NCBI RefSeq assembly: GCF_002843315.1 | Contig: NZ_MVDD01000022.1 | Span: 1-64,000 of the forward strand | Source of the DNA: Labilibaculum filiforme | GTDB taxonomy: Bacteria; Bacteroidota; Bacteroidia; Bacteroidales; Marinifilaceae | DNA: 64,000 nucleotides | Reading direction: 5' to 3' | Shown: piece after piece, positions 7,666 through 63,669 of the stretch | Layout: every line of letters begins with the position of its first letter | How positions within the stretch are numbered: position 1 is the first letter of the stretch | The notes under the pieces: model-generated | What the model saw: the letters and a program-made list of their open reading frames with translations, nothing else | Told to the model about the DNA's origin: nothing | The model's database searches: none | Translations under genes and position numbers: made by a program

Positions 7666-10600
7666 TTAATATTCTTTTGAAGAATCTAATAGTTTTTCAT
7701 ATTCTGCTTTCGGACCTACTACAACATCTCTGTACTCTCTTAATCCTGTACCTGCAGGAATAAGGTGACCACAAATAACATTTTCCTTTAAACCGTCAAG
7801 ATTATCAATTTTACCGCTAATTGCAGCTTCATTAAGAACCTTAGTTGTTTCCTGGAAGGAAGCCGCTGAAATAAAACTCTTAGTCTGAAGAGCAGCACGA
7901 GTAATACCTTGAAGAATTTGAGTAGAAGTAGCAGGAATTGCTTCACGAGCTTCAACTAGTTTCAAATCTCTTCTACGCAATACTGAATTCACATCTCTCA
8001 GTTTTCTAGAAGTAACAATCATTCCAGATTTCAATTCCTCAGAATCACCAGCATCAACAACCACTTTCTTACCAAAAATTTCATCATTTTCTTCCATGAT
8101 AGCCATTTTATCGATAATTTGTTTCTCTAGGAATCTTGTATCCCCTTGGTCATCAATAATTACCTTACGCATCATCTGACGAACGATAATTTCAAAGTGC
8201 TTGTCATTAATTTTCACACCCTGCATACGATATACATCCTGAACTTCGTTCACAATATATTCCTGTACTTTAGTTGGTCCTTTAATGGCAAGGATATCTG
8301 CAGGAGTCGTAGCACCATCTGATAATGGAGTTCCAGCTCTTACATAATCATTCTCTTGAACAAGAATCTGTCTAGATAGAGGTACTAAATACTTTCTAAC
8401 ATCATCTCCTTTTGTTGTAACGATAACTTCACGATTACCACGCTTAATTTTTCCGAAACTAATCTCTCCATCCACCTCCGAAACTACAGCAGGATTTGAA
8501 GGATTACGTGCTTCGAACAACTCTGTTACTCGTGGAAGTCCCCCCGTAATATCACCAGTTTTTCCAACAGCTCTCGGTATTTTCACTAATGACTGTCCTG
8601 CCAAAACCATTTCCCCTTCGGAAACAGAAACGTGAGCTCCTACTGGTAAATTGTACGATTTTAAAACGTCACCATTAGAACTTAAAATTCTAACGCCAGG
8701 ATTTTTTGTTTTATCTTTAGATTCAGTTACTACCTTTTCAGCAAAACCTGTTGCTTCATCCGACTCCTGAGTAAAAGTTATCCCTTCAATCAAATTATCA
8801 AATGACACTTTTCCTGAAAATTCAGTAATAATCATGGCATTATAAGGATCCCATTCACAAAGAAGATCGTCAATCTTAACATCCTGACCGTCTTTAATGT
8901 ATAATTTAGATCCGTATGGAATAGCATGTGTTGTTAATGTAATATTGGTATTTCTATCAACAATACGTAATTCAGCCAAACGACCAATAACAACATGATA
9001 CTTCTTCTTATCTTCACCTTTGTGCTCAACGGTACGTAATTCATCAAATACAGCATAACCATTGTATTTAGACACAACAGAATTCTCTGCAGAAGTATTA
9101 CCCGCTGTACCCCCTACGTGGAAAGTACGAAGTGTAAGCTGTGTTCCTGGCTCCCCAATAGACTGAGCAGCAATAACACCAACAGCTTCCCCTTTTTGAA
9201 CAGCAATACCAGTTGCTAAGTTACGTCCATAACATTTTGCACAAACTCCTCGTTTCGACTCACAGGTTAAAACAGAACGAATTTCTACCTTTTCAATTGG
9301 TGAATCCTCAATTAATTGAGCAATTTCTTCAGTAATTTCCTCTCCTGCCTCTACAATTAATTTTCCAGTAATAGGATGGAAAATATCATGTACAGTAGTT
9401 CTACCAAGCAATCTTTCGAATAAAGAAGCAACTACTTCTTCTTGATTTTTAATTGCACCAGTAGTTAGTCCACGTAGAGTACCACAATCTTGTTCGGTAA
9501 TAATAACATCTTGAGCTACATCCACTAAACGACGAGTTAAGTATCCAGCATCAGCCGTTTTAAGAGCCGTATCCGCCAAACCTTTACGAGCACCGTGAGT
9601 TGAAATAAAGTACTCAAGAACCGATAAACCTTCCTTAAAATTCGAAAGAATTGGGTTCTCGATAATTTGACCACCTGTAGCACCAGATTTTTGAGGCTTA
9701 GCCATCAATCCCCTCATACCACCAAGCTGACGAATCTGTTCTCTAGATCCACGAGCTCCTGAGTCAAGCATCATATAAACAGAGTTGAATCCCTGATTAT
9801 CTTCCGCTAACTGAGTCATCAAAGTTTGAGTAAGGTTCGCATTCACATGCGTCCAAATATCAATAATCTGATTGTAACGCTCATTATTAGTAATGAAACC
9901 CATGTTGTAGTTACTCAACACTTCTTCAACTTGAGCATAACCATCAGCTACTAAAGCTTCTTTTTCTGCAGGAACCTGAACATCAGAAAGGTTAAACGAA
10001 AGTCCTCCCTCAAACGCTTTAAGGTAACCAAGATCTTTAATATCATCCAAGAAGTTAGCACAAGCATGTACGCCACATTTCTTGAAAATAAATCCGATAA
10101 TATCTCTTAAAGCTTTTTTAGTAATCAATTGATTAATAAAACCAGCCCCTTCAGGAGTTGCTTCGTTCAAAATGATACGACCAATAGTAGTTTCCACAGT
10201 TGTGTCCACTAACTCACCATTCTCATTCAGATCTTTTACTTTTACTTTAATCTGACTATGCAAATCAACAGCTTTTTCGTTAAAAGCAATCATTGCTTCT
10301 TCTGCTGAATAAAAGCTTAAACCTTCACCTTTTCCACCTGTTCGTGCCTTAGTAATATAATACAATCCAAGTACCATATCCTGAGAAGGAACAGTTACCG
10401 GTGCACCATTAGCAGGGTTCAAAATATTGTGAGAACACAACATTAACATTTGGGCTTCCAAAATAGCTTCATTACCTAAAGGCAAGTGAACCGCCATCTG
10501 GTCACCATCAAAATCCGCATTAAAACCAGTACAAGCTAAAGGATGCAAACGAATTGCTTTTCCTTCGATCAACTTAGGCTGAAAGGACTGAATACCCAAA

Positions 10601-50515: not shown

Positions 50516-51202
50516 TCACCCTACATGAGTATTCAATACATACCCAACTCCTCTTACGGTATCAATTTGTAAAACCTTCTGATCTTTAAATAAATCTCTT
50601 AGCTTAGATAGCGTATTGTTTAGGCTGGCATTGTTTTCCGGCACTAAAGAATGGTTCCATAGCTTTTCTGCCAACTGCTCTTTAGTTACTATTTTATTGG
50701 GATGCTCCATTAGCACTGCCAAAGCATTTTTTTCAAAAGGGCTCAGCTTTTTTATCAATTCATTCTCGTAAAACAATTCACCTGACAGTAAGTTGAGTTG
50801 ACAACCTGCTAATTTTATTATTTGTGATGGATTTGATTTTGAGACAAAACGTTGGATATAAGAAACGAGAACAGGTATCGATAAAGGTTTTGGAATATAA
50901 GCACTGCCCCCAATACTAATTCCCTTTGTTATAAATTCAGCTTCAGTATGAGAGGAGACAAACAGCAGTGGAATTTGCGGGTGTCTTGTCACAATATCTC
51001 GCGCTTTTTCAATGCCATTAGTCGCTCCTATTTCCACATCTAAAATAATAATATCCGGCATCAGAGTCTGTACAATCGAATCTATTCCCAGCAATGTATT
51101 TTGGAAATGCACTTTATAATTGTACTCAGTCTCTAGTATGGTTGTAACAAAACTTCCTAAATTGATATCATCATCAACAAATAGCACTTTTAATTGTTCC
51201 AT
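50516..51202 (-). CDS. OmpR-type response regulator
   Basis: A 228-residue regulator. The start at 51202 (MEQLKVLFVDDDINLGSFVT) is used because the longer frame lacks family similarity and overlaps the kinase gene. The receiver domain has the acidic pair in VDDD, the phosphorylated Asp55 in IIILDVEIGA, and the lysine in YIPKPLS; the C-terminal winged helix begins CQLNLLSGELFYENELIKKL and includes KLRDLFKDQKVLQIDTVRGV with GYVLN. It starts 20 bp after its kinase partner gene. The pair diverges from the peptide cluster, which it may control through the TGATTAGAAA boxes (inference). Confidence 0.93.
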   Translation of the reverse strand: MEQLKVLFVDDDINLGSFVTTILETEYNYKVHFQNTLLGIDSIVQTLMPDIIILDVEIGATNGIEKARDIVTRHPQIPLLFVSSHTEAEFITKGISIGGSAYIPKPLSIPVLVSYIQRFVSKSNPSQIIKLAGCQLNLLSGELFYENELIKKLSPFEKNALAVLMEHPNKIVTKEQLAEKLWNHSLVPENNASLNNTLSKLRDLFKDQKVLQIDTVRGVGYVLNTHVG

Positions 51203-51221
51203 TTTCACTTCTTTACATAAC

Positions 51222-52604
51222 TTAAATAATAACTTTTCCAGGAAGAACAATACTAAATGTACTGCCTTCCCCAAGCTTACTTTCTAATCTGACACGCCCT
51301 TTGTGAGCTTTTACTATTTGTTGGGTAAAAGCCAAACCAATGCCATGCCCCTTACTGTTGTTATCTGCACGGTAAAATTCCTTAAAAATCTTCCTTTGCT
51401 CTTTTTTAGGAATCCCTTTCCCCGAATCTGTAACACAAATGTGTAAGTATTTTTTTTCCCGAATCGCTTTAATTTCCAGTTTTACACATGCATCCGAATA
51501 TTTAAACGCGTTATCCAACAAATTGCGTAAGGCTGCTTCGAAATAAAGTGGATCCACATAAATATCTAAATTTTCAGGAATCGACAGCTTGCATTCAGCT
51601 TGTTTATCTTGATAGACAAGCTCCGATTCCGAGAGTAAATCCCTGCATTTTTTCGCCAGGTTGAATAGCGTAACCTCCAATACAATTTTCTTTTTCTTCG
51701 AACGAAATAAGGTCAGTAAAATCTCCATTTTGTGAGTCAGTTTAGAGACATTGCTACTTGCATTCCTGAGCTGTTGCTGCATGGCGGGCAATTGTTCTTT
51801 GCTGGCCAGATAATCCAATAATGTATAGACATAAGATAAAGGACTTTTTAAATCGTGTACCATACCACTCACGGCTCGTTCGCGCCACTGCAGCTGTGCC
51901 ATTTGTTGCTGCAATTTCCACAGCAACCACAGCAGAAAAATGGCGACTAGAACAACAGCGAGTGCCGATATGCCAATGGAATATACCATTCCTCTTAAAA
52001 AAGGAAAGGTTTTCAACTGAAAATCAGCAATAAAAACATAGCTCCCTTTTGTGCCTAAGGGAATACGAACATGTAATGTTGAGGGGGAGTTTCCCCATTT
52101 CTTATCCATTTCTTTTCCCATATGCAAACTATCCATGGCCAGATCATTTTTCAGAAGCTGCATACGGTAAGCTTGTATTTTTTCGAATTCGGGAAAATTG
52201 TTTTGCAACAATGAGTCAACAACATACAGATGAAATTTTCCTTTCCCTAAACTAATATCTGTAAATGAAGCTTCTATCAATTTTCCCAGTGCGAAATCAG
52301 GAATGTAATTTTTTGTGTTAATTTCAGATCTACCCAATTCTGCAGAAGTATCTTTACCTATTTCTTCATTTGCTGTTTCGTCCATTAAAATAATAGCCAC
52401 ATCCGGTTTTGTAAGATTAGGAGTGCTATACCCTTGTAAAGCATGAAAATTGATCATGCCTTGCAAGGAGCTTTCCAGCTTCGATGTAAACGTCTGTTTT
52501 TCCTGCTCCAACTGCTGCCATAACCACAATCCCTGCGAACCAATAAGTATTGCAAGTACCAGTACGGACATTACACCGAGTCTTTTGAAAAATTTGTTTT
52601 TCAT
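51222..52604 (-). CDS. Sensor histidine kinase
   Basis: A 460-residue membrane kinase. A first helix (about 9-30, MSVLVLAILIGSQGLWLW) and a second (about 206-230, MVYSIGISALAVVLVAIFLL) enclose a ~175-residue periplasmic sensor of unknown ligand. The phosphorylated His250 is in GMVHDLKSPLSYVY, and the ATPase domain has NLLDNAFKYSDA, DSGKGIPKKEQRKIF and KGHGIGLAFTQQIV. It is first in a two-gene unit with the response regulator. Its promoter must lie in the shared 366-bp gap with the peptide cluster, which contains the repeated boxes. Confidence 0.93.
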   Translation of the reverse strand: MKNKFFKRLGVMSVLVLAILIGSQGLWLWQQLEQEKQTFTSKLESSLQGMINFHALQGYSTPNLTKPDVAIILMDETANEEIGKDTSAELGRSEINTKNYIPDFALGKLIEASFTDISLGKGKFHLYVVDSLLQNNFPEFEKIQAYRMQLLKNDLAMDSLHMGKEMDKKWGNSPSTLHVRIPLGTKGSYVFIADFQLKTFPFLRGMVYSIGISALAVVLVAIFLLWLLWKLQQQMAQLQWRERAVSGMVHDLKSPLSYVYTLLDYLASKEQLPAMQQQLRNASSNVSKLTHKMEILLTLFRSKKKKIVLEVTLFNLAKKCRDLLSESELVYQDKQAECKLSIPENLDIYVDPLYFEAALRNLLDNAFKYSDACVKLEIKAIREKKYLHICVTDSGKGIPKKEQRKIFKEFYRADNNSKGHGIGLAFTQQIVKAHKGRVRLESKLGEGSTFSIVLPGKVII

Positions 52605-52970
52605 AACATAAAGATATCTTTCTTTTTAAAAAAGAGTAAAGTTTTCTTTATTAGAACAATTCTAAATTGTGCTTTCTTGTCAAAAAAACAGGCTCATTTC
52701 AAATCAAAACACACCACCTTTTCTAATCAAATCGCAACCAAAGTGTCATTGAATGATTAGAAAGATAGTTAGTTCTGCCAGGTCCTACTAAATATTGAGC
52801 TTGCTTTTCCCCACACCCAATTTACGCTCTGTCTGTTTTCATTTGATGATCATTATCTCACTTTTTTTGATTAGAAAACCACCTATTGTTTGATTAGTTT
52901 TCTAATTACAAGCAGTTAGAAAGTTAATCGTTTTTTTGGATTTTATGTTCCAATTTTAAAAGAGTTTTAA
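52605..52970. promoter_or_regulatory. Divergent control region with repeated TGATTAGAAA boxes
   Basis: This 366-bp gap between the two-component genes and the peptide cluster holds no gene. It contains TGATTAGAAA at 52754-52763 and 52868-52877, its reverse complement TTTCTAATCA at 52720-52729, and a palindromic relative ATTAG-TTTT-CTAAT at 52893-52906 starting with TGATTAG at 52891; GTTAGAAAG at 52915 is a weaker copy. The last two clear boxes are 23 bp apart, about two helical turns, near the cluster start. The repetition fits operator sites for the adjacent OmpR-type regulator. No convincing TAnnTTTG promoter is seen. Confidence 0.55.
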
Positions 52971-53132
52971 ATGAATACTTCACTAAAAAAAGTAAAAATC
53001 ATGAAAACGAAAAAAGACAGCAAAGCAATGGAGGTATTAAACCGAAACAAATTAGGCCAAGTAAAAGGCGGAGAAGATAGAGATTACTACACAGTTATTA
53101 TTGATGGAAAAGAGGTGAGAATATATGTGTAA
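52971..53132 (+). CDS. Short GG-leader peptide without cysteine, 53 aa
   Basis: A 53-codon gene, MNTSLKKVKI MKTKKDSKAM then EVLNRNKLGQ VKGG followed by EDRDYYTVIIDGKEVRIYV. The double-glycine leader (L-x-x-x-x-L-G-x-x-x-GG pattern) resembles substrates of C39-peptidase exporters, and such an exporter is encoded at 58.9 kb. The internal ATG at 53001 (MKTKKDSKAM) is an equally possible start. The predicted 19-residue core has three tyrosines and no cysteine, unlike the two precursors at 53.6-54.0 kb. It could be an independent peptide or signal. The frame and leader are seen; processing is inferred. Confidence 0.7.
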   Translation: MNTSLKKVKIMKTKKDSKAMEVLNRNKLGQVKGGEDRDYYTVIIDGKEVRIYV

Positions 53133-53367
53133 CAGAAAAGAATGTATCAAAACAGAAGAATTAAACCAATATAATATGACAATCTACTTTTTAGGGAAAA
53201 ATAATTTAGGAAAGTAGCCGCCCCGGATTACGCATGAATATAAATCCATCCTCTACCGGAGGTGGCTATAGTAGCCATAGCTACCTGTAAGCAAGGACAA
53301 AGCTACTAGAAAGAGGTGAATTTTGCAATTGTGAAAGGAATGGACAAACTAAAATAAGTATAAATAA
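53133..53367 (+). other. Stretch between the first peptide gene and the decayed precursor
   Basis: No convincing gene. A 30-codon frame (53125-53217, MCNRKECIKTEELNQYNMTI) overlaps the stop of the first peptide gene in ATGTGTAA fashion, and an 18-codon frame (53234-53290, MNINPSSTGGGYSSHSYL) follows in another phase. GGCTA and TAGCC inverted repeats near 53264-53276 and further GTAGC/GCTAC copies can form small hairpins. These could be remnants of another precursor or a structured leader. Confidence 0.3.
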
Positions 53368-53529
53368 AAAAAGACAATTGATATAATAGTTGAGCCAATT
53401 GACATAATGAGCGATGAACTAAAATATATAAAAGATGGTTATTCCAACACAGTCAATTATGAGCAACCCAAAAAAGTGAAATACAAATCTGGAAATACTG
53501 ATTCTAAGGAAGATTTACTTTTGGTTTGA
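53368..53529 (+). pseudogene. Decayed GG-leader precursor copy
   Basis: The frame reads KKTIDIIVEPIDIMSDEL, KYIKDG, then YSNTVNYEQPKKVKYKSG and NTDSKEDLLLV. It aligns along its length with the two intact precursors downstream (compare IDILQEELKQIKGG and YSEPIS..GKVKCKK). Three features point to decay: the double glycine reads DG, both core cysteine positions read tyrosine (TAT and TAC), and there is no ATG at the family start (the codon before AAAAAG is TAA). A shorter product from the ATG at 53407 (40 residues) could still be made but would have a truncated leader and no C39 site. Confidence 0.65.
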
Positions 53530-53575
53530 TAACTTCATGAAGTTAAAATCAATTTTCTTTTAAAAATAATTTTGT

Positions 53576-53752
53576 ATGAAAACTAAAAAAATAGAAATTA
53601 TTGTTGCTGCATCCGATATTCTTAAAGAAGAACTTATACAAATTAAAGGTGGTAATTATTCGGAGCCTATTAGCTGTAGTAGTCCAGGGAAAGTTAAATG
53701 TAAAAAACCAGGCACAGATAACAGTCTAACGCAAAACTTATCCGTTTGGTAA
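53576..53752 (+). CDS. GG-leader precursor peptide 1, 58 aa, two core cysteines
   Basis: A 58-codon gene. The 26-residue leader MKTKKIEIIVAASDILKEEL IQIKGG ends in a double-glycine site for the C39 exporter. The 32-residue core is NYSEPISCSSPGKVKCKKPG followed by TDNSLTQNLSVW, with Cys34 and Cys42 (C-x7-C) and a C-terminal Trp. 23 of 32 core positions are identical to the second precursor. The two cysteines next to a radical SAM/SPASM gene suggest thioether (or disulphide) crosslinks, which is inference. It may represent a new precursor family; I do not recognise the core. Confidence 0.85.
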   Translation: MKTKKIEIIVAASDILKEELIQIKGGNYSEPISCSSPGKVKCKKPGTDNSLTQNLSVW

Positions 53753-53798
53753 TAAATGCTAAAAGATCAATAAATTAAACTACAATTAATTTAACAAT

Positions 53799-53975
53799 AT
53801 GAACAATTCATTAATCAATATTCTTGTAGAACCAATAGATATTTTACAAGAAGAATTAAAACAAATCAAAGGCGGTAATTACTCTGAGCCTATTAGTTGC
53901 AACCCTACTGGGAAAGCCAAATGCAAAAAACCTGGTGAAGATAATAGTCAAACAAAATACATTTCTGTTTGGTAG
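53799..53975 (+). CDS. GG-leader precursor peptide 2, 58 aa, two core cysteines
   Basis: Leader MNNSLINILVEPIDILQEEL KQIKGG, core NYSEPISCNPTGKAKCKKPG then EDNSQTKYISVW. Length, GG site, both cysteines, KCKKPG and SVW end are conserved with precursor 1, while the leader N-terminus and residues between the cysteines vary. Conservation of the positions flanking the cysteines argues that they are enzyme targets. It lies 64 bp before the radical SAM gene, so the maturase is probably expressed from the same transcript. Confidence 0.87.
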   Translation: MNNSLINILVEPIDILQEELKQIKGGNYSEPISCNPTGKAKCKKPGEDNSQTKYISVW

Positions 53976-54039
53976 AATAAATAGCATGGGTTTCTGTTTT
54001 AATAAGAAACCCATCTTAATAAAACTTAAATAACAAAAT

Positions 54040-55344
54040 ATGATATTTTCCAAATACAATTATTTATTCGACTCTAAAAAATATGGATATTTCATTTATA
54101 ATTCGAGAACTAATTCATTTTTAAAATTAGATAAAAGTTTATATAAAACACTTTTAGAACATCAAAAGTCTAACGCAAATAACATTGTCTTAGAGCCTGA
54201 AACTCTTGATATTTTAAATAAATCAAAAGTGTTTGTTTCTCAAAATGAGGATAATAATTTTTATACTCAAAGAAAATTCATAAAGTACCAGAAATGTTTT
54301 TCAGTGACAGATATGGGAATAGTTATAGCACCAACTATGGCTTGTAATTTTATGTGTCCATATTGTTATGAAGCAGATTTGCCTGCCACAGTGATGTCAG
54401 AAGAAGTTCAATCTGAAGTCATAAAATTTATAGAATCAAATAATGGTTCAAATAATTTAACTCTTTGCTGGCATGGAGGAGAACCACTTCTTGCGTTTGA
54501 TGCGATGAAGAATATTCTAGATAATATTGAAAATTCTGATAAAATAAATCTCCGATCGCATCAATTAGTAACTAATGGCTATTTACTTGATCAGGATAAA
54601 GTTGAATATTTAAAGAAACACAATTTAAATTCTGTTCAAATTACAATTGATGGATTGCCAGAAAGACACAATCAAAGTAGGAAACATAAATCTGGAGTTC
54701 CTACATATGATAAAATAATTAATAATATTGAGAACCTTGTTAAAATTGCACCTGAGTGTCATGTAAATATTAGAGTAAACATACATGAAGATAACAAAGA
54801 AGATTTTCCTATTTTATATAATACACTATCAGATAAATGGAAACATAATAATGTGAATGTAAATATGGTATTTACTGAAGATTTTGGTAATTGCAAGGTA
54901 AAATGTCTATCTAAGAAAGAATATGTTGATTTTTATAAGAATTTAAAAAATAGTCATGATATTAAGGAGGTATCCTTTTATCCCAAGCCTAAGGACATAG
55001 GATGTACTGTGGATTACACCAATAGTTGCATTGTAGGTCCAACTGGAGATTTATACAAATGTTGGGTAGATCTAGGTAAAGAAGATCGAATTATCGGTAA
55101 TATATTTTCAAACGAGAGAAATTACGCTATTCTATCTGAATATATTATTGGCACTGATATTTTTAATGATCCTAAATGTAAAGACTGCTTATTATTTCCA
55201 ATATGTGATGGAGGTTGTAGCCTTTTTAGATACGAGCACAAGTTAAATGGTACAGAGTATAATGTTTGTCCAATAAATTTTGAGGATCTGCCTAAATTAT
55301 TAGAACTGCATTACGAACAAGGATTAAACAAACTTGAAGAATGA
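54040..55344 (+). CDS. Radical SAM/SPASM peptide maturase
   Basis: A 434-residue enzyme. The N-terminal ~90 residues (YLFDSKKYGYFIYNSRTNSF onward) resemble the precursor-binding region of peptide maturases. The radical SAM cluster motif CNFMCPYC has Cys102, 106 and 109, followed by LCWHGGEPLLAFDAM and the QITIDGLPERHNQSR segment. The C-terminal SPASM region has many Cys: GCTVDYTNSCIVGPTGDLYK, then CWVDLG, KCKDCLLFPICDGGCSLF and YNVCPI, enough for one or two auxiliary [4Fe-4S] clusters. It is expected to form carbon-centred crosslinks on the adjacent precursors. It overlaps the next gene by 4 bp (ATGA). Confidence 0.93.
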   Translation: MIFSKYNYLFDSKKYGYFIYNSRTNSFLKLDKSLYKTLLEHQKSNANNIVLEPETLDILNKSKVFVSQNEDNNFYTQRKFIKYQKCFSVTDMGIVIAPTMACNFMCPYCYEADLPATVMSEEVQSEVIKFIESNNGSNNLTLCWHGGEPLLAFDAMKNILDNIENSDKINLRSHQLVTNGYLLDQDKVEYLKKHNLNSVQITIDGLPERHNQSRKHKSGVPTYDKIINNIENLVKIAPECHVNIRVNIHEDNKEDFPILYNTLSDKWKHNNVNVNMVFTEDFGNCKVKCLSKKEYVDFYKNLKNSHDIKEVSFYPKPKDIGCTVDYTNSCIVGPTGDLYKCWVDLGKEDRIIGNIFSNERNYAILSEYIIGTDIFNDPKCKDCLLFPICDGGCSLFRYEHKLNGTEYNVCPINFEDLPKLLELHYEQGLNKLEE

Positions 55345-57692
55345 AAAAAACACGCTGGATAATTATTCTTTTTATTTTGTTATCTCAATTCAAATTTATT
55401 TACTCGCAAACTACTCATATTAGAGGTAAAGTAAGTGATACCAACAAGAAACCTCTAGAGTATTTTACAGCAACAATATTAACACCCTCCGATTCAAGTA
55501 TCATAATCGGAGGTGCTTTTATTGATGGTATTTTTGAATTTCCAAAAATAGAACAGAACAAATGCTATTTACAAATTTCATGTGTAGGTTACCAAACTGT
55601 AACTCGACAAATTGATTTATCAGAGAACAATTCGATAGATATTGGAACGGTTCAAATGAAAAATTTAGAATTAGATGAAGTTACTGTTTTTGCAAAGCGA
55701 CCAACTTTTAGACAAGTTGAAGGAAGATTGCTTATTGATGTAAAAGGAACTGCATTGAGTGAAGCTGGCGATATCTTTGATGCTCTAAAAAGATCACCTG
55801 GATTAATTGTTGATAACAACAACAACATTATCGTATTCGGAAAAGGGACTCCTATTGTTTTTATCAACGAAAAAGAAGTTCAAAATCAAGCTGAAATAGA
55901 AAGTCTACAATCTGATGATATTGTAAGCATAGAAATCGATCGCAATCCTTCAGCCGAATACAGTGCTTCGCGAAATGCGGTTGTGAGAATCAAAACAAAG
56001 AGAATCACAAATGATAAAATAAGCCTTCAGATTTACAACCGGAATTATTTTGCCAGAAAATTCAGCGCCCAAAGCGGATTGCAACTCGCCAGTAAAATCA
56101 ACAAAACTACTGCTTCAATTAATTATGAATACCGAGATTTCAAATCAAAAAACTACGAAGATGCATATGAAATAAACACTCAAAGTGAATATACAATATC
56201 TAACAATAACTCAACCACTCGACTTCCAAAAACAAAAACACACAATTTGTTTTTTTCTCTCAATCAAGAAATCAACGCAAAAAACAACATCGGTTTCCAA
56301 TATTCATATATTTCTACCAATCAAAAACAGGACTCCGATTCGAAACAAACCATCAACAAAACAAATGATGGAGTTACCAATCGAAATATTTTAAAAGACA
56401 GGGATGTAGATAAAAACCTGCACATTTATAATCTGAATTACCAATATGATATTGACAGTACATCTTCTTTGTCCGTTATAGGTGATTACACAAGGTCTGC
56501 AAATCATTCAACCGAAGATATCGGTGAGGCGAACATAACAAATAATTCAAATTTGAAAAGCTTGATCGATAATCAAAATGATTACAAGATCTATAGTGGA
56601 AAGATAGACTTTAAGACTTGTCTCCTCCAATCAATAAATCTGCAAACAGGAGTAAAAGCATCAAAAGTTACTAACAATGGAAAAGTTACTTCAGTGAATC
56701 AAATCACCACAACAGAAAACTACCAAATTAATGATAAAATTGATGACCGTATAAGTGCTGCTTATTTCAACTTAGAACCAAAACTAAATAATTTCAAATT
56801 GGAAGCAGGATTTCGTTATGAGTATACCGACACCAAAATATCTTCAAACGAAAAAACTGTTCTCGATTCAACTTACGGGCACTGGTTTCCTTCTGTCTTA
56901 ATCAACAAAGAATTTTCCGACTATGTAAATGTAACATTGAGTTACGCTAAAAAAATTGACCGACCAAGTTTTAATGAATTAAGTACCGACATTACCTATT
57001 TTGACGCACTATCGTATAGTACCGGAAACCCAAAAATAAAACCTACAATCAGTCACAATCTTGACCTTAGTTTTGGTTTGTTCAAAAATCTCTCGGTTAA
57101 TTTTGCATACAAATACGAAAAAAATGCTCGAATTCAAAGTGCAGTTAGCGATGATGTAAATCCAGATATCGTAAAATATACTCCTGTTAATATCAAGCAA
57201 GCCGAATACATGTATCTGAACATCAATTACAATTATTCCGGAAAAAAACTGAATTCAACCTTTAGTTTAGGAGGAGAGAAACCATTTATCGAAATCCCAT
57301 ATTTGGAAGGAGTTCGAAAAATACGACAATCCTCATGGTATTTTCAAACCAATAACGATTATTCAATTACATCCAGAACAAGTATTTTTGCAAATTACTT
57401 ATATAGTAGCAGCAGTAAAGATTTAATGACGCATTTTGAGAGTTCATCCAAGTTGTCTGTTGGTGTAAACACTTCTTTTTTCAGTAAAAAGTTAAACGTT
57501 GCAATAATGGCCAATGATATTTTCAACACTTCTGATAATTCATGGGAAGATAAATATGGGAATATCGTTGCAGGCTTAAATCCTGATAATGATAACACAT
57601 GGGTGAGATTTTCCATTAAATACAACCTCTATGATTTTAAAGGTGGCATCAGGAAAAAATCAGCGAGTGAAAGTGAATTAAATAGATTGTAA
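55341..57692 (+). CDS. Outer-membrane beta-barrel protein (TonB-dependent-receptor-like) of the peptide cluster
   Basis: A 783-residue outer-membrane protein. A signal peptide (KTRWIIILFILLSQFKFIYS) precedes a CarboxypepD-reg-like domain (THIRGKVSDTNKKPLEYFTA, about 25-105), a plug-like domain (SEAGDIFDALKRSPGLIVDN, about 130-220) and a large C-terminal barrel of the outer-membrane beta-barrel family (PFAM OMP_b-brl type, for example FNLEPKLNNFKLEAGFRYEY). Its start overlaps the maturase stop in ATGA, so translation is coupled. In this setting it could be the outer-membrane step of export or an uptake/immunity receptor; no TolC-like gene is present in the cluster. Confidence 0.85.
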   Translation: MKKTRWIIILFILLSQFKFIYSQTTHIRGKVSDTNKKPLEYFTATILTPSDSSIIIGGAFIDGIFEFPKIEQNKCYLQISCVGYQTVTRQIDLSENNSIDIGTVQMKNLELDEVTVFAKRPTFRQVEGRLLIDVKGTALSEAGDIFDALKRSPGLIVDNNNNIIVFGKGTPIVFINEKEVQNQAEIESLQSDDIVSIEIDRNPSAEYSASRNAVVRIKTKRITNDKISLQIYNRNYFARKFSAQSGLQLASKINKTTASINYEYRDFKSKNYEDAYEINTQSEYTISNNNSTTRLPKTKTHNLFFSLNQEINAKNNIGFQYSYISTNQKQDSDSKQTINKTNDGVTNRNILKDRDVDKNLHIYNLNYQYDIDSTSSLSVIGDYTRSANHSTEDIGEANITNNSNLKSLIDNQNDYKIYSGKIDFKTCLLQSINLQTGVKASKVTNNGKVTSVNQITTTENYQINDKIDDRISAAYFNLEPKLNNFKLEAGFRYEYTDTKISSNEKTVLDSTYGHWFPSVLINKEFSDYVNVTLSYAKKIDRPSFNELSTDITYFDALSYSTGNPKIKPTISHNLDLSFGLFKNLSVNFAYKYEKNARIQSAVSDDVNPDIVKYTPVNIKQAEYMYLNINYNYSGKKLNSTFSLGGEKPFIEIPYLEGVRKIRQSSWYFQTNNDYSITSRTSIFANYLYSSSSKDLMTHFESSSKLSVGVNTSFFSKKLNVAIMANDIFNTSDNSWEDKYGNIVAGLNPDNDNTWVRFSIKYNLYDFKGGIRKKSASESELNRL

Positions 57693-57717
57693 ATATCAAC
57701 TTAAAAAAAGAAACACC

Positions 57718-58209
57718 ATGAGTACATTAAAAAATCTAATCAGCACTCACTTAAGTGCAGAACAAGTAGAGGCTGTTAATACGGCTCTCTCGACTTTAGA
57801 AACAGCCTTGGCAGCTAAGGTGAGTAATCTTAGTGGAGATGAGCGTCGCAAGTATGGTAGTATAAGCGAACAAAACAAACTGTTTGTAAACAAGGTGAAC
57901 GACTATGCCATGAATCAAACTGCATTGCGAAGTCCTGATGTAGATTGGGCTGAGTTTGCCAAAGACTTTAATAGTCGTACTGTTTTGGAAGGAACCATTT
58001 CACGTTTGCAAAATCTGCTCACAGGCATAAACAATGCGAAAACTCTGCACGACTACGACAACTACCAGGCTGCTTTAGATGATTATGCCTACACCAATTA
58101 CAAAACAGGAACATCTGCTCCGGGCTACGAGGCCAAACGCAATGAACTGAAACAATTCTTTAGCCGTATCAAAAAAGTTGATGAAAAGGAAACAGCGGAT
58201 AAGAAGTGA
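57718..58209 (+). CDS. Hypothetical helical protein in the peptide cluster
   Basis: A 163-residue soluble protein I do not recognise. It starts MSTLKNLISTHLSAEQVEAV and appears almost wholly alpha-helical (NTALSTLETALAAKVSNLSG; LEGTISRLQNLLTGINNAKT; YEAKRNELKQFFSRIKKVDE). No signal peptide, membrane segment or metal motif is seen. It lies 26 bp after the barrel gene and is probably in the same transcript. A weak terminator-like inverted repeat (CCTGAC ... GTCAGG followed by a T-rich run, about 58239-58290) follows. Function unknown. Confidence 0.7.
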   Translation: MSTLKNLISTHLSAEQVEAVNTALSTLETALAAKVSNLSGDERRKYGSISEQNKLFVNKVNDYAMNQTALRSPDVDWAEFAKDFNSRTVLEGTISRLQNLLTGINNAKTLHDYDNYQAALDDYAYTNYKTGTSAPGYEAKRNELKQFFSRIKKVDEKETADKK

Positions 58210-58217
58210 TACTTAGT

Positions 58218-58238
58218 TTAAGTAGACACTGCTTAAAT
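58218..58238 (+). repeat. Short repeat, copy 1 of a pair flanking the exporter module
   Basis: TTAAGTAGACACTGC followed by TTAAAT, nine bases after the helical-protein stop codon. A near-identical copy (TTAAGTGCACCTGCTTAAAT) is at 62273-62292, after the fusion-protein stop. The two enclose the exporter, the GxxExxY gene and the fusion-protein gene. Confidence 0.5.
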
Positions 58239-58319
58239 CCTGACTGGTTTAATTTATATATCGCAAATTTAACTTGTCAGGTTATTTTTTATAGATGTCT
58301 GATCGTTTGTTTTTATACT

Positions 58320-58690
58320 AAATAGGCTTTGCAATAGAAAGACTTCGGTTCTGTATCGAAATACTTTGCTTCACAACCAAAGTATTGAGGTTCGTGAAGC
58401 TAAACCGTGGGCTTAGGAAGCGAAAGGAAGAGGTTCTGTACCGAACCGGAGAGGTTCAAGAACCTGAAATTTTAGGTTTGCAACCCCTAACTTAGATTCC
58501 TAAATCCCAACGGAAATATGGGGAACCGAAGGAGAAACATAAGAAACCTAAAAAGAATGGTAGGCATACGTAAAAAATTAGGTTCGCAAACCTAAAAGTT
58601 GGAGTCGTAAACCAGAACGGAACAATCTGGAACGATAAATTAAGGGTAAATGACCGAAACAGAATGGTAGAGAACCCCAAACCCTAAGAA
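58320..58690 (+). other. Unexplained purine-rich tract with serial hairpins
   Basis: Within the 652-bp gap 58210-58861 this stretch has no supportable gene but a run of small inverted repeats: ATACTTTG/CAAAGTAT (58361-58368 and 58378-58385), GGTTC/GAACC (58432-58447), AGGTTCAAGAACCT (58452-58465) and TTAGGTT/AACCTAA (58578-58595), with the theme AGGTT...AACCT recurring. The plus strand is strongly purine-biased. It might be a structured RNA, an expanded small repeat or a decayed gene. Confidence 0.4.
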
Positions 58691-58697
58691 AATTATT

Positions 58698-58771
58698 ATG
58701 AAGCGTGAACACAGATCTAACAGATAAAAGATTCGTGAAAATTCGTGCCATCTGTGTTATTCGTGTTTCAT
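58698..58771. repeat. Dispersed palindromic repeat, copy A
   Basis: Left arm ATGAAGCGTGAACACAGAT (58698-58716) and right arm ATCTGTGTTATTCGTG then TTTCAT (58750-58771) are imperfect inverted repeats around ATTCGTG units. It belongs to the ACACGGAT/ATTCGTGTT repeat type also seen at 58.78, 61.1 and 61.6 kb. Confidence 0.7.
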
Positions 58772-58776
58772 AAAAA

Positions 58777-58840
58777 GGACACGGATGTAACGAATAAAAT
58801 AATCTTTGGAAATCCGTTTCATTCGTCCAATTCGTGTTCC
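58777..58840. repeat. Dispersed palindromic repeat, copy B
   Basis: GGACACGGATGTAACGAAT (58777-58795) against ATTCGTCCAATTCGTGTTCC (58821-58840). The arms pair imperfectly around a 25-bp centre. It ends 21 bp before the exporter start codon, so it would lie in or near its mRNA leader. Confidence 0.7.
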
Positions 58841-58861
58841 GTTCTAAAAAATGAGTAATCA

Positions 58862-61078
58862 ATGAAATATGCTTTCTACAAACAATTCGATGCCATGGAC
58901 TGCGGGCCAACCTGTGTACGGATGATTGCCAAATACTACGGCAGGCACTATTCACTGGAGCAACTTCGAAAAAAAAGTTTCGTTACCCGCGAAGGTGTTT
59001 CGATGCTAGGCATTAGCGATTGTGCCGAAAGTATAGGTTTTCATACTTTGGCAGGTCGTTTTACGTTCGATAAATTGGCAGAGCAAGCTCCCCTGCCCTG
59101 TATTGTTCATTGGCGACAAGATCATTTTGTGGTGGTATATGCTATAAGGAAGAAAAAATCATTATTTAAAAAAACAGAAATTCAAATTATAGTTGCCGAT
59201 CCAGGTAAAGACATCATAAAATATAGTAAAGATGAGTTTCTGGAAAACTGGATTAGTACCAAAACAAGGGGCGAAGACAAAGGAGTTGCCCTACTGTTAG
59301 AACCAACGCCCAGGTTTTATGAACAGGAGGGAGAGAAAAACCCCACAGGAAGTTTTGCTCTTCTTTTCTCCTATTTTGGACGGTACAAAAAGTATTTCAC
59401 CCAATTGCTTCTGGGTTTACTTTTGGGCAGTATATTGCAACTCATCTTTCCTTTTTTAACTCAGGCAATTGTAGATGTTGGTATATCCGACCAAAACCTG
59501 AGTTTCATCTATCTAATACTACTTGCACAACTAATTCTGTTCGTTAGCCGCATGTCTGTCGATTTTATACGCAGGTGGATTCTTTTGCACATCAGTACAC
59601 GCATAAACGTTTCTCTTATTTCCGATTTCCTAATAAAATTGATGAAACTCCCCATGAGTTTTTTCGACACCAAATTAGTAGGTGATATTTTACAACGAAT
59701 AGAAGATCATAGGCGTATTGAACGTTTTCTAACAGCACAATCTTTAGGTGTGATTTTTTCGTTATTCAACTTTATTGTTTTTGGAATTGTACTCTTGGTT
59801 TATAGTACAAAGATATTTTTAATATTTCTGGCAGGTAGTATTTTATATGTTTTATGGATTTTCATCTTTCTAAAGAAAAGACGTACTCTCGATTATCAGT
59901 TTTTTGAACAGCAAGCTTTAAATCAGAGCAAAACTTACCAGTTAATTAATGGAATGCAGGAGATCAAACTTCAAAACTGTGAAAAGCGGAAACGCTGGGA
60001 ATGGGAAGATGTGCAAGCAGATTTGTTTCATGTAAATATAGCATCTTTATCGCTTCAACAGTCACAGGAAGGCGGAACTGTATTTATCAACGAATTGAAA
60101 AACATTCTAATTACCATTGTTGCAGCCTCAGCAGTTATCAATGGCTCCCTTACACTGGGAATGATGCTTGCCATACAATATATCATTGGGCAGTTGAATA
60201 GTCCTTTGGAACAAATGGTCGGTTTTATTCACAACATGCAGGATGTGAAGATCAGTCTCGACCGTTTGTCCGAAATTCATCAAAAAGAGAATGAGGATGA
60301 AAAAAATGAAACAAAATTTCAGAATTTCTCTCATGGAAACCGAAGCATCGAAATCGAAAATCTGTGCTTTCAATACGAAGGTCCTCACTCGCCCAAAGTA
60401 CTCAACAATATCAATCTAACCATTCCGCAAGGCAAAGTAACAGCCATAGTGGGAGCCAGCGGGAGTGGAAAAACCACATTGGTAAAATTATTACTGGGAT
60501 ACTATCACCCAACAAATGGGCAGATAAAGGTAGATCAGCATCAGCTTTCTGAATATGATTTGCGGTGGTGGCGAAACCAGTATGGTGCTGTAATGCAGGA
60601 CGGATTTATCTTTTCGGAATCAATTGCCAAAAACATTGCAGTTTCAGACGAAGAAATTGATAAAGATAAATTGTTGCATGCTGCAAAAGTTGCCAACAGC
60701 CATAATTTCATTAGCGAACTACCCTTAGCATACAACACTGTTGTAGGACAAGAGGGACAAGGTGTGAGTCAGGGGCAAAGACAACGCATACTAATAGCGA
60801 GAGCTGTGTATAAAAATCCTGATTTTCTCTTTCTGGATGAAGCTACAAATGCACTGGATGCCAACAATGAAAAAGAAATCAGCAGAAATTTGGATCGTTT
60901 TGTGGCAGGAAAAACTGTTGTTATTGTTGCGCATCGCTTAAGTACTGTGAAAAATGCAGATCAAATAATTGTTCTAGATAAAGGGGAAATCGTAGAGAGA
61001 GGAACTCATGCAGAATTAACAAAAAATCGTAATCATTATTATGAGTTGGTTAAAAACCAACTGGAGTTGGGAAATTAA
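58862..61078 (+). CDS. C39-peptidase-containing ABC exporter (PCAT)
   Basis: A 738-residue exporter that cuts GG leaders and moves the core across the inner membrane. The N-terminal C39 domain has the catalytic Cys14 in MDCGPTCVRMIAKYYG and His88 in HWRQDHFVVVYA, with Asp in VADPGKDI. The membrane domain spans about 170-440. The nucleotide-binding domain has Walker A GASGSGKTTLVKLL, the signature VSQGQRQRILIARA, Walker B FLFLDEATNALD and the H-loop AHRLSTV. It is the logical processor of the GG precursors at 53 kb. Copy B of the repeat lies directly upstream, so it may have its own expression. Confidence 0.95.
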   Translation: MKYAFYKQFDAMDCGPTCVRMIAKYYGRHYSLEQLRKKSFVTREGVSMLGISDCAESIGFHTLAGRFTFDKLAEQAPLPCIVHWRQDHFVVVYAIRKKKSLFKKTEIQIIVADPGKDIIKYSKDEFLENWISTKTRGEDKGVALLLEPTPRFYEQEGEKNPTGSFALLFSYFGRYKKYFTQLLLGLLLGSILQLIFPFLTQAIVDVGISDQNLSFIYLILLAQLILFVSRMSVDFIRRWILLHISTRINVSLISDFLIKLMKLPMSFFDTKLVGDILQRIEDHRRIERFLTAQSLGVIFSLFNFIVFGIVLLVYSTKIFLIFLAGSILYVLWIFIFLKKRRTLDYQFFEQQALNQSKTYQLINGMQEIKLQNCEKRKRWEWEDVQADLFHVNIASLSLQQSQEGGTVFINELKNILITIVAASAVINGSLTLGMMLAIQYIIGQLNSPLEQMVGFIHNMQDVKISLDRLSEIHQKENEDEKNETKFQNFSHGNRSIEIENLCFQYEGPHSPKVLNNINLTIPQGKVTAIVGASGSGKTTLVKLLLGYYHPTNGQIKVDQHQLSEYDLRWWRNQYGAVMQDGFIFSESIAKNIAVSDEEIDKDKLLHAAKVANSHNFISELPLAYNTVVGQEGQGVSQGQRQRILIARAVYKNPDFLFLDEATNALDANNEKEISRNLDRFVAGKTVVIVAHRLSTVKNADQIIVLDKGEIVERGTHAELTKNRNHYYELVKNQLELGN

Positions 61079-61082
61079 GTGT

Positions 61083-61166
61083 AGAACACCGATTCAACGA
61101 ATATGACGGATAGACACTGATAAAAAGATTCGTGTTAATTCGTATTGTCTGTGTAATTTGTGTTCT
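61083..61166. repeat. Dispersed palindromic repeat, copy C
   Basis: AGAACAC (61083-61089) and GTGTTCT (61160-61166) are exact terminal inverted repeats, with inner ATTCGTGTTAATTCGT units opposite ACGAAT and GACGGATAGAC. It lies between the exporter stop and the GxxExxY gene. Confidence 0.7.
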
Positions 61167-61234
61167 AATAAAAAGATTTGTAGAAACCTGTTTAATCAAT
61201 ATTGTTAGTGCTCCATCATTTTTATCTTTAATCT

Positions 61235-61648
61235 ATGCTCGAAAAAGAAATAACAAACAAAATCATCAAAGCCTACTATAAAGTGTACAACACATTAGGT
61301 TATGGATTTCTTGAAAAGGTTTATGAAAACGCAATGTGTTTAGAATTACACAAACAGGCTTTGTTTTGTAAGCAACAAGAACGAATTAAAGTGTTTTACG
61401 ATGGCAAACAAGTTGGAGAATACTTTGCAGATATTATTGTAGAAAACAGAGTTATTATAGAATTAAAAGCAGCTGAAAATTTATGTTATGAACATGAATG
61501 CCAATTAATCAATTATCTAAAAGCAACCAATATTGAAGTAGGCTTACTACTCAACTTTGGAAAAGAACCACAATTCAGAAGAAAAATATTTACCAACGAT
61601 CGCAAACAGAACTCGGATGACGCGGATAAAACAAATGAACACGGATAG
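61235..61648 (+). CDS. GxxExxY protein (PD-(D/E)XK nuclease-like)
   Basis: A 137-residue member of the GxxExxY family, named for G24-x-x-E27-x-x-Y30 in TLGYGFLEKVYENAM. The later YFADIIVENRVIIELKAAE has Asp66 and Glu76-x-Lys78, the PD-(D/E)XK nuclease pattern, and the usual QLINYLKAT and GLLLNFG segments follow. The final 12 residues (NSDDADKTNEHG) are encoded by the left arm of palindromic repeat copy D, so the stop codon lies inside the repeat. The family has no established role; it is common in Bacteroidota next to such repeats. It does not look like part of the peptide pathway. Confidence 0.88.
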   Translation: MLEKEITNKIIKAYYKVYNTLGYGFLEKVYENAMCLELHKQALFCKQQERIKVFYDGKQVGEYFADIIVENRVIIELKAAENLCYEHECQLINYLKATNIEVGLLLNFGKEPQFRRKIFTNDRKQNSDDADKTNEHG

Positions 61649-61693
61649 AAAATAATTCGTTAAAATTCGTTTAATCTGAATGATTCGTGATCC
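61615..61693. repeat. Dispersed palindromic repeat, copy D, overlapping the GxxExxY gene end
   Basis: The left part GGATGACGCGGATAAAACAA and ACACGGATAG, the right part AATTCGTTAAAATTCGTTTA and GATTCGTGATCC form an imperfect palindrome (GGAT at 61615 with ATCC at 61693). It contains the GxxExxY stop codon (61646-61648) and ends 18 bp before the fusion-protein ATG. Confidence 0.65.
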
Positions 61694-61710
61694 AATTAAA
61701 AGTGAAAGAT

Positions 61711-62250
61711 ATGGCAGAGCAAAAAGATAATATAGAACTCAGAAGTGAAAAAGTAAGAAACATAATAGGGCAAGTCCCTTCACGGATAATTCGGAGTGGA
61801 ATAACCACATTATTTGTAGTTGTAATGATTCTTTTGACTGGCAGTTACTTTTTTCGTTACCCGGATACTCTAAAAGGGACTACTCACTTACACTCCGACT
61901 CAATCTCTCTCTATTTCGCAACCATCAACCTGCCTTATCATTTTATTGGAAAGATAAAATCAGGACAGAAAGTAAACATTGAGATGGAAGGATATCCTGC
62001 AAATAATTTTGGTTTGCTAAAAGGAGAAGTCTCTCAGGTATTCCCTACCCCATTAGAAACTAATGAAGCGAGCTATTTTATAGTAAAAGTAACATTAACC
62101 AATGGAATGACGAGTACTCAAAACAAGATCATTACTTTTTATCCAAACCTGAAAGGAAAGGCAAAAATAACAATTGGAGAACATCGATTGCTTGAAAAGT
62201 TACTCTCTCCGATTGTCAGTATTTTTAAATCAAAAGAGCAATCACAATAA
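61711..62250 (+). CDS. Short HlyD-like membrane fusion protein lacking the hairpin
   Basis: A 179-residue protein from ATG 61711 (MAEQKDNIELRSEKVRNIIG); a GTG eight codons upstream is inside repeat D and less likely. The N-terminus, QVPSRIIRSGITTLFVVVMI LLTGSYFFRYPDTL, is the usual cytoplasmic tail and single membrane helix of Bacteroidota HlyD-type exporters' partners. The C-terminal IKSGQKVNIEMEGYPANNFG and GLLKGEVSQVFPTPLE to ITIGEHRLLEKLLSPI match their beta-barrel domain. The roughly 200-residue lipoyl and coiled-coil middle is absent. It probably partners the C39 exporter but cannot reach a TolC-type channel in the usual way. Confidence 0.75.
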   Translation: MAEQKDNIELRSEKVRNIIGQVPSRIIRSGITTLFVVVMILLTGSYFFRYPDTLKGTTHLHSDSISLYFATINLPYHFIGKIKSGQKVNIEMEGYPANNFGLLKGEVSQVFPTPLETNEASYFIVKVTLTNGMTSTQNKIITFYPNLKGKAKITIGEHRLLEKLLSPIVSIFKSKEQSQ

Positions 62251-62314
62251 AAACATTTTATTGTGATACCCCTTAAGTGCACCTGCTTAAATGGTAATTA
62301 TTTAAGCAGGCACT
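62241..62314 (+). repeat. Two strong hairpins after the fusion-protein gene
   Basis: ATCACAATAAAA (62241-62252) pairs exactly with TTTTATTGTGAT (62256-62267), covering the stop codon. Next, AGTGC and CTGCTTAAAT (62276-62292) pair with ATTTAAGCAG and GCACT (62300-62314). Neither has a clear T tract. The second includes copy 2 (62273-62292) of the short repeat first seen at 58218. Confidence 0.65.
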
Positions 62315-62340
62315 ATTCCTAATTAACCAAGCAACCTTCC

Positions 62341-63669
62341 ATGAAAAACTTTATTCTTCTTTCGTTTGTATTTATAATTACCTACCATGCATGTAGTCAG
62401 AAATACACTCCATACAACTTTTCAAATGTCGATATCAAAAATGACCTTCAATTTTTAAAAGAAAAATGTACAAGTATTCATCCTAAATTCTTAGACGAAA
62501 ACTTCTCAAAATCGTGGAGTAATACATGTGACAGTATCATTAAAACTTTAAAAGACAGCACATCCATGAATGATAGTTTCATTATAATGTCAAAACTTTT
62601 ATCGGAAATTGAGGATACTCATACTGGATTTAATTTCCCCTTTGAAGAGAGACAAAAATACATGTCGAATGGAGGCCTTTGTATGCCATTTACAATTCTG
62701 GTTAAAAACAATAAATTATTTTTCAATCAGTATTTTAGTAAAAACCCAAACATACAGCTAAGCGATGTTGAGATAGTATCGATAAACGCAATTGATTCTC
62801 GAAAAACACTCTCCGATTTACGAAGTATAGTGGGTGTTAACAATCGAGAATGTGGAGATTACGCAGTAGAAAAATTCTTTAATATGGGCTTTTGGATGCT
62901 TTATGGAGAATCAGAAAAATACCTGATACAAACAGTTTCTTCCGACTCAATTCTTACTGCAAAAGCGCTTACCAACGATCAATATTTCGCGCTTAAAAAC
63001 CAGTATCCTAATCCACAACAAAATCAATACAAATTGGAGTTTTCCAAGAATAATCAAGTGGCAAATTTATCCATAAAATCCTTTTTTGGGGATGATAATT
63101 TCTATACTTTCCTTTCCAACTCTTTTGACTCTATAAAACAAAAAGAATGTTGTACACTAATTCTAGATGTAAAGAATAATCCAGGAGGAAGAAGTTGTGC
63201 CGTTGATAGCCTGCTAAATTATCTAACCAATAAACCATACGGTCAATATGCATCTATTGGTATTCGTGTAAGTGATGAAATAAAGACCTTATACAAGACA
63301 AAATATCCACAATTGTATAATATTATAAATCATTTAAATAATAATACAATTTACAACTTAAAAGACAGCACTTTAATACATATTCCTACTCCTAAAAAAT
63401 CGTTATTTAATGGAGATTTATTCGTTATAATAAACGAAAGAACAAATAGTGCAGCAGCTACTTTTGCAGGTGTTGTTAAAGAAAACAAACTAGGAGTAAT
63501 CGTTGGTAATAAACCGACAGGCGAACACCTAAAATACTATGGCGATTTTATCTCTTTTAAGCTTCCAAATACGAAACTTGAATTTTTTATATCCCCTAAG
63601 GAGTTTATCCAATTTGGTGGAACAAACTTTAATGCCGGAGTGGAGCCTGATACCTCTACCTTGCCTTAA
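62341..63669 (+). CDS. S41-family peptidase, possibly lipidated
   Basis: A 442-residue exported serine protease of the S41 (C-terminal processing/tricorn-like) family. The signal region MKNFILLSFVFIITYHAC may end in a lipobox-like Cys18, though Y at -3 is unusual. A helical N-terminal domain (FLKEKCTSIHPKFLDENFSK; SKLLSEIEDTHTGFNFPFEE) precedes the catalytic core: TLILDVKNNPGGRSCAVDSL, VIINERTNSAAATFAGVVKE (catalytic Ser) and VIVGNKPTGEHLKYYGDF. No PDZ domain is obvious. As the last gene of the cluster it may trim or degrade the exported peptide, or serve self-protection; this is inference. Confidence 0.85.
   Translation: MKNFILLSFVFIITYHACSQKYTPYNFSNVDIKNDLQFLKEKCTSIHPKFLDENFSKSWSNTCDSIIKTLKDSTSMNDSFIIMSKLLSEIEDTHTGFNFPFEERQKYMSNGGLCMPFTILVKNNKLFFNQYFSKNPNIQLSDVEIVSINAIDSRKTLSDLRSIVGVNNRECGDYAVEKFFNMGFWMLYGESEKYLIQTVSSDSILTAKALTNDQYFALKNQYPNPQQNQYKLEFSKNNQVANLSIKSFFGDDNFYTFLSNSFDSIKQKECCTLILDVKNNPGGRSCAVDSLLNYLTNKPYGQYASIGIRVSDEIKTLYKTKYPQLYNIINHLNNNTIYNLKDSTLIHIPTPKKSLFNGDLFVIINERTNSAAATFAGVVKENKLGVIVGNKPTGEHLKYYGDFISFKLPNTKLEFFISPKEFIQFGGTNFNAGVEPDTSTLP

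Follow-up and report, generated by a model that had tools for sequence, protein, structure and literature searches.

Peptide pheromones carrying a double-glycine (GG) leader are familiar from Gram-positive bacteria. In the ComCDE and Blp systems of streptococci a GG-leader peptide is encoded beside a kinase and a regulator, the peptide is exported by a C39 transporter, repeated boxes are present, and the system controls secreted peptides; the regulators of these systems belong to a type other than OmpR/PhoB. Here we describe a locus of Labilibaculum filiforme (Bacteroidales), in which a small GG peptide gene stands next to genes of a histidine kinase and a response regulator, and is followed by genes for ribosomally synthesized and post-translationally modified peptides (RiPPs). 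The window, i.e. the whole stretch of DNA that was analysed, comprised positions 1-64000 of contig C22, part of a genome of 5.2 Mb (labelled G000). The locus resembles ComCDE and Blp in the GG peptide with kinase and regulator, C39 export, the repeated boxes and the putative control of secreted peptides, and differs from them in the HATPase_c/HisKA-like kinase, the OmpR/PhoB type of the regulator, the Gram-negative host and the exchangeable RiPP cargo. We think it fairly probable that it is a peptide-signalled RiPP cassette, that is, that a pheromone system controls exchangeable RiPP cassettes. Gene content, the linkage of peptide and kinase, the boxes, the exchange of cargo and the conserved pairing can be read directly from the DNA.

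The RiPP part of the locus has its own described relatives. Like the maturases of the CteB/ranthipeptide kind (Clo7bot TIGR04334, PapB), its enzyme combines radical S-adenosylmethionine (SAM) and SPASM domains and is accompanied by Cys-bearing precursors, but its scores are far under the cut-offs of those models, and the GG leader, the C39 export and the hypervariable cores set it apart. Among the papers found, the closest to the locus describes the Bacteroidales RiPP clusters BGC1-9, which in the sections of PMC10352776 that concern us have radical SAM enzymes, GG precursors, C39 exporters and outer-membrane proteins, BGC5 including also a kinase and a regulator; unlike the locus studied here, no kinase-paired GG peptide, boxes, cargo exchange or leader RNA is described for them in those sections. 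A search of the open-access literature listed no paper on a GG-peptide pheromone system in Bacteroidota.

The signalling module consists of the following features:
50516-51202, minus strand: response regulator of OmpR/PhoB type with receiver and Trans_reg_C domains (PF00072, E 1.3e-16; PF00486, E 3.6e-14)
51222-52604, minus strand: histidine kinase of 460 amino acids, divergent from the small peptide gene (PF02518, E 1e-24; HisKA 19.1 bits, cut-off 26.9)
52700-52729, minus strand: box pair on the kinase side, 1 mismatch to TGATTAGAAA-N13-TGATTAG
52868-52897, plus strand: box pair on the peptide side, 0 mismatches
52971-53132, plus strand: putative pheromone precursor with conserved start at 53001, GG leader and core EDRDYYTVIIDGKEVRIYV

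The original prediction, which saw in this region a RiPP pathway only, began its range with the GG peptide at 52971-53132, but left the peptide undescribed and the two-component genes at 50516-52604 outside. The arrangement by which peptide-pheromone two-component quorum sensing is recognized, namely linkage between the gene of a small GG peptide and those of a kinase and a regulator, is present here. The peptide is free of Cys, and its interpretation as a third RiPP precursor was ruled out by its presence in genomes that have no maturase. In the family it was found at E <=1e-7 in 11 of 56 genomes, and the kinase at E <=1e-150 in the same 11 and in no other; the next kinase match (G016) was partial, with E 3e-51. 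The distance between the starts of the peptide and the divergent kinase was 355-508 bp in ten of the 11 genomes. In the eleventh (G026) there is a stop inside the peptide and the regulator was matched in two frames, thus peptide and regulator decay together. C39 genes occur in all 11 peptide genomes, but also in 34 of the 56 family genomes overall.

The linkage extends beyond the family. When a profile of the peptide was run against 393 genomes of the order, 13 genomes besides G000 were matched at E 0.01. Leader-only matches (G252, G433, G204, G246, G240) and matches in long frames (G128, G202, G439) were set aside, and the short-frame matches that reached the core (G057, G277, G169, G070, G283) all lay at a kinase/regulator pair, with Pfam confirmation for three of these five distant kinases. 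The kinase query, in which at most four candidates were scored per genome, had no other matches in the order than G070 and G283; G057, G277 and G169 were missed by it and were recovered through the peptide alone. The G057 peptide fits the core motif well and is present in three tandem copies beside the kinase/regulator pair (L116 8260-8797). In 395 genomes of the class the profile found no convincing member, only three weak matches besides G000, and in the stretches fetched for these three the GG peptides were of an ordinary kind and a kinase motif was absent.

None of the peptides scanned exceeded any NCBIfam or Pfam cut-off; ComC (PF03047) was listed among them for the G040 peptide only, at 13.9 bits against 20.4. 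A comparison with the RprY model (NF051850) gave 82.2 bits against a cut-off of 370. The best match of the N-terminal part of the kinase to a solved structure had E 0.16, and no kinase relatives were found in viral contigs. In three order genomes a C39 exporter and a protein that has a histidine-kinase-like motif are found in the vicinity of GG peptides (L119 6740-11266, L120 1044-6134, L121 1851-6929; motifs HVSHGIRTP, NVSHELRTP), which is perhaps another peptide/kinase arrangement.

The regions between kinase and peptide are rich in boxes of the form TTCT[AC]AT[CT]: 13 such regions contain 40 of them, where dinucleotide shuffles lead one to expect 2.9, although, the regions being related, these are not 13 independent tests. 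In G037, G038 and G026 most boxes carry one common base change. A search of G000 for TGATTAGAAA-N13-TGATTAG with up to two mismatches gave six matches, the reversed control three. With at most one mismatch there were only three places in the genome (52700, 52868 and contig position 64297), all of them at this locus. The third pair lies 297 bp past the end of the window, in a duplicated promoter followed by a decayed copy of the peptide. This duplicated promoter cassette (L029 4130-6380, contig ~64129-66379) continues with a DUF4377 protein and an astacin-type (M12A) protease. G029 and G034 have retained the same arrangement of duplicated promoter, decayed peptide, DUF4377 protein and astacin. 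That the boxes are retained while the peptide copy decays fits a promoter role in driving cargo.

In the window the cargo downstream of the peptide includes the following genes:
53371-53529, plus strand: decayed third precursor copy (E 3e-4, 46% identity)
53576-53752, plus strand: RiPP precursor 1, 58 amino acids, GG leader and 32-residue core
53799-53975, plus strand: RiPP precursor 2, 58 amino acids, GG leader and 32-residue core (TIGR04149, 15.9 bits)
54040-55344, plus strand: radical SAM/SPASM maturase (PF04055, E 1.7e-17; CX3CX2C)
58862-61078, plus strand: ATP-binding cassette (ABC) exporter with C39 peptidase domain (PF03412, PF00664, PF00005)

This cargo changes from genome to genome. 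A maturase of this type stands beside peptide and kinase in G000, G003, G029, G034 and G040, and another radical SAM/SPASM enzyme with another precursor in G028 and G004. In G038 the place is occupied by a thiazole/oxazole set with SagB- and SagD-type proteins (140 bits, cut-off 78, and 269 bits, cut-off 219, respectively) and a SagC-like partner, which scored under the cut-off of the SagC model. G033 and G026 have barrels with other proteins; in G037 the peptide contig carries a barrel-like protein and others, the maturase being on a separate contig. In the genus of the window the left neighbour is the same in all five genomes that have the module and the right neighbour in four; in G000 the contig ends before the right neighbour is reached. 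Between G000 and G028 the exporter is 97% identical and the kinase 82%, whereas the maturases are quite different, thus the locus is a mosaic.

A mechanism can be proposed on these grounds; what we infer in it are all steps of the signalling, the chemistry, and the functions of the outer-membrane barrel, the helical protein and the S41 peptidase (listed below). A C39 exporter would cleave the GG leaders and secrete the modified peptides together with a pheromone of 19 residues. The kinase would detect the pheromone in the periplasm, and the regulator would bind the TGATTAGAAA boxes and raise expression of the pheromone and the cargo as well as that of its own genes. This would amount to positive feedback on both divergent promoters, with read-through into the cargo.

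Several observations weigh against this interpretation. All evidence is computational, and the genomes are akin, hence the linkage of peptide and kinase does not consist of independent cases. There is no box pair directly upstream of the precursors at 53576, therefore the RiPP genes would come under this control only if transcription from the peptide promoter reads through to them. Maturase relatives occur without the module in G006, G015 and 12 further order genomes, and the kinase query, within its four candidates per genome, matched none of these 12 order genomes. No C39 gene was seen in the fetched stretches of G029, G034, G033, G004, G026, G038 and the G037 peptide contig. The distant members are imperfect as well: the peptides of G277 and G169 are poor matches to the core motif, the G070 peptide has a full frame without a start, in G283 the copy on the kinase side has a stop and the intact copy is about 7 kb away, and neither G070 nor G283 has any box of the form defined above.

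The small GG peptide could also be an effector, e.g. an unmodified microcin, and the kinase/regulator pair could answer another cue. Effectors, like signals, can have GG leaders and leave the cell by C39 export, three tandem peptide copies are found in G057, and co-evolution of peptide and sensor was not detected: co-variation between the sensor and the peptide core beyond that of the kinase domain was not significant (partial r 0.10, p 0.30, 10 genomes), which counts against the signalling mechanism too. We regard this as unlikely, because the peptide keeps to one kinase in 11 of 11 genomes while the cargo changes, because its core is conserved, unlike the RiPP cores (mean identity in nine sequences 67%, that of the leader 59%), and because promoter boxes remain where peptide copies decay. 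That the locus is an ordinary SPASM RiPP pathway, with peptide and two-component genes as chance neighbours, would agree with the occurrence of the RiPP pathway without the module, but seems to us very improbable in view of the perfect co-occurrence of peptide and kinase in the 56 genomes and the confinement of box pairs to this locus. The peptide-signalled cassette remains the interpretation that we prefer. It may go further and represent a previously undescribed family of peptide-pheromone quorum sensing in Gram-negative Bacteroidales. A GG peptide whose core resembles YxxVIIDGxxVRIYV would then, through a kinase, a regulator and a box regulon of its own, control a chromosomal site where unrelated RiPP pathways replace one another, and a new structured leader RNA would precede precursors of the radical SAM type; this broader proposal is tentative, and we consider it slightly less probable than not.

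The leader RNA proposed is represented in the window by one element:
53131-53374, plus strand: conserved hairpin, a putative leader RNA at the 5' end of the precursor message (from conservation, pair counts and a model search)

The element (as stretch 53133-53375) is 74-97% identical upstream of precursors of both radical SAM classes, and has two copies in G003. In an alignment of nine sequences 93.5% of the cells pair, and double changes were found in 6 of 17 pairs against 1.6 in shuffles (one of 500 as high) and 0-2 when the structure was slid; the structure was tested on the same alignment from which it was predicted. A fitted alignment of 13 gave support in four measures, but not in the count of pair types (67/500). 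The model found four places outside its building set, of which two were second copies in G000 and G029, one (E 1.7e-5) was directly before the precursor of G037, and one, weak (E 0.013), before a precursor in G234, which belongs to another family. A fifth match, probably a false one, falls in a long frame (L068 6845, E 0.028). A second hairpin model gave no additional copies, and Rfam had no match to 53131-53374 at E 1, nor at the gathering score in five sources. At nine of ten RiPP places no more than 25 nt separate the end of the element from a precursor start. The G000 element stops at the decayed copy, with 202 nt between its end and the first intact precursor.

The element is likely a leader RNA, which would probably tune precursor output as part of the message, by influencing how the message is translated or how stable it is. 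It is less probable, though a serious alternative, that the conserved stretch is a site of frequent recombination or the remnant of a gene. In G034 part of it is covered by a short frame beginning with ATG, the exporter and kinase identities of G000 and G028 testify to recent exchange between genomes, the model had no copy at 11 of 12 other maturase loci of the order, and the covariation term of RNAalifold was near zero (-0.09), the last of which counts also against the overall interpretation given above. For a functional leader argue the excess of double changes, with the restriction just mentioned, the G037 copy from outside the building set, directly before the precursor, and the short distance to a precursor start at nine of ten RiPP places.

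The RiPP pathway itself is a fresh member of an already known kind. The original prediction of two 58-codon GG-leader precursors with 32-residue cores was borne out, except that the cores are not near-identical: they agree in 23 of 32 positions (72%). Both have the pattern Cys-x7-Cys and SVW at the end. Replacements between them are few and synonymous changes many (pN 0.15, pS 0.72, proportions of replacement and synonymous changes from two sequences). In the third copy Tyr replaces both Cys and DG replaces GG, the full frame lacking an ATG; a query with the precursors matched in G000 only the three copies of this locus. TIGR04149, the model of radical SAM-modified precursors, gave precursor 2 15.9 bits against a cut-off of 25 and did not match precursor 1. 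The precursor cores of related maturases are completely different from genome to genome, and the expectation that NYSEPISC-type precursors always accompany homologous maturases was not upheld; we dropped this core as a family mark. What held of the proposed single pathway is its GG leaders, SPASM maturase and C39 exporter, together with a GG-leader open reading frame (ORF) with at least two Cys near 21 of the 23 related maturases examined. These ORFs were chosen manually among the matches to a loose pattern, no farther than 2.2 kb upstream or 1.5 kb downstream; the two maturases without one are L126, at a contig end, and L135, which contains stops, and L031 (27% identity) was left out of the count. 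One ORF linked to a maturase (L131 ~8928-9007, minus strand) has many repeated Cys-Gly-Gly units, in which it is like Cys-every-fifth peptides.

The maturase has the features of a radical SAM/SPASM RiPP enzyme: the CX3CX2C motif, Cys residues for auxiliary clusters and a precursor nearby. C102, C106 and C109 and seven more Cys are invariant in an alignment of 16 sequences. Its best solved relative is 5wgg (E 1.8e-19), which we take to be CteB. In none of the 25 best NCBIfam models listed did it reach the cut-off, and membership in a named maturase family was dropped (TIGR04334 Clo7bot 190.1 bits vs. 600, PapB 132 vs. 340). Homology to 5wgg and to the PapB model makes the products candidate ranthipeptides (thioether from Cys to a non-alpha carbon), and the two Cys-x7-Cys peptides are probably thioether-crosslinked by the CteB-like enzyme before export. 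Relatives were found at E <=1e-50 in 8 of 56 family genomes and at E <=1e-60 in 14 of the 393 genomes of the order, a number that includes G000 and G015; genome_contigs contained two distant relatives. A C39 gene was present in all 12 newly fetched maturase loci of the order; the fetched DNA of the family loci in G029 and G034 had none, and both genomes have C39 matches elsewhere.

Further genes of the cassette are:
55341-57692, plus strand: outer-membrane barrel with CarbopepD_reg domain (OMP_b-brl_3, E 5e-63)
57718-58209, plus strand: protein of 163 amino acids, function unassigned, probably helical
61711-62250, plus strand: short HlyD-type adaptor (TIGR01843, 52 bits; PF13437, 20.2, cut-off 22.2)
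62341-63669, plus strand: S41 peptidase (PF03572, E 9e-18)

The gene set originally reported, from the two precursors to the S41 peptidase, is in place: frames are open, positions agree and domains are as described. The ATG of the barrel overlaps the stop of the maturase, and the ORF of the adaptor (61687-62250) opens with GTG, with an ATG at 61711. Between exporter and adaptor sits an ORF of the PDDEXK_3 nuclease family (61235-61648). S41 peptidase matches occur near maturases also in L025, L028, L030, L131 and L133. The 163-amino-acid protein had no Pfam family over cut-off; copies at least 75% identical are present in 7 of the 11 peptide/kinase genomes, and it is possibly a partner or immunity protein. 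Distant paralogues exist in family genomes (one is G000:C7:18193-18651), and five of them (G000 C7, G040 C52, G039 C40, G036 C11, G005 C3) have a C39 match at a distance of about 5 kb or less. In G038 the gene lies 16 bp after the small GG peptide.

If our interpretation is true, the locus offers a defined peptide, sensor and DNA box for tests of the sensing of exported peptides by Gram-negative cells. It would also suggest when RiPP clusters of this sort become active, and that one synthetic 19-mer could wake them, while the conserved module can serve as bait for further secreted-peptide pathways. A signal with its own sensor and switch may time peptide production, and would be an unfamiliar chemical conversation in this group.

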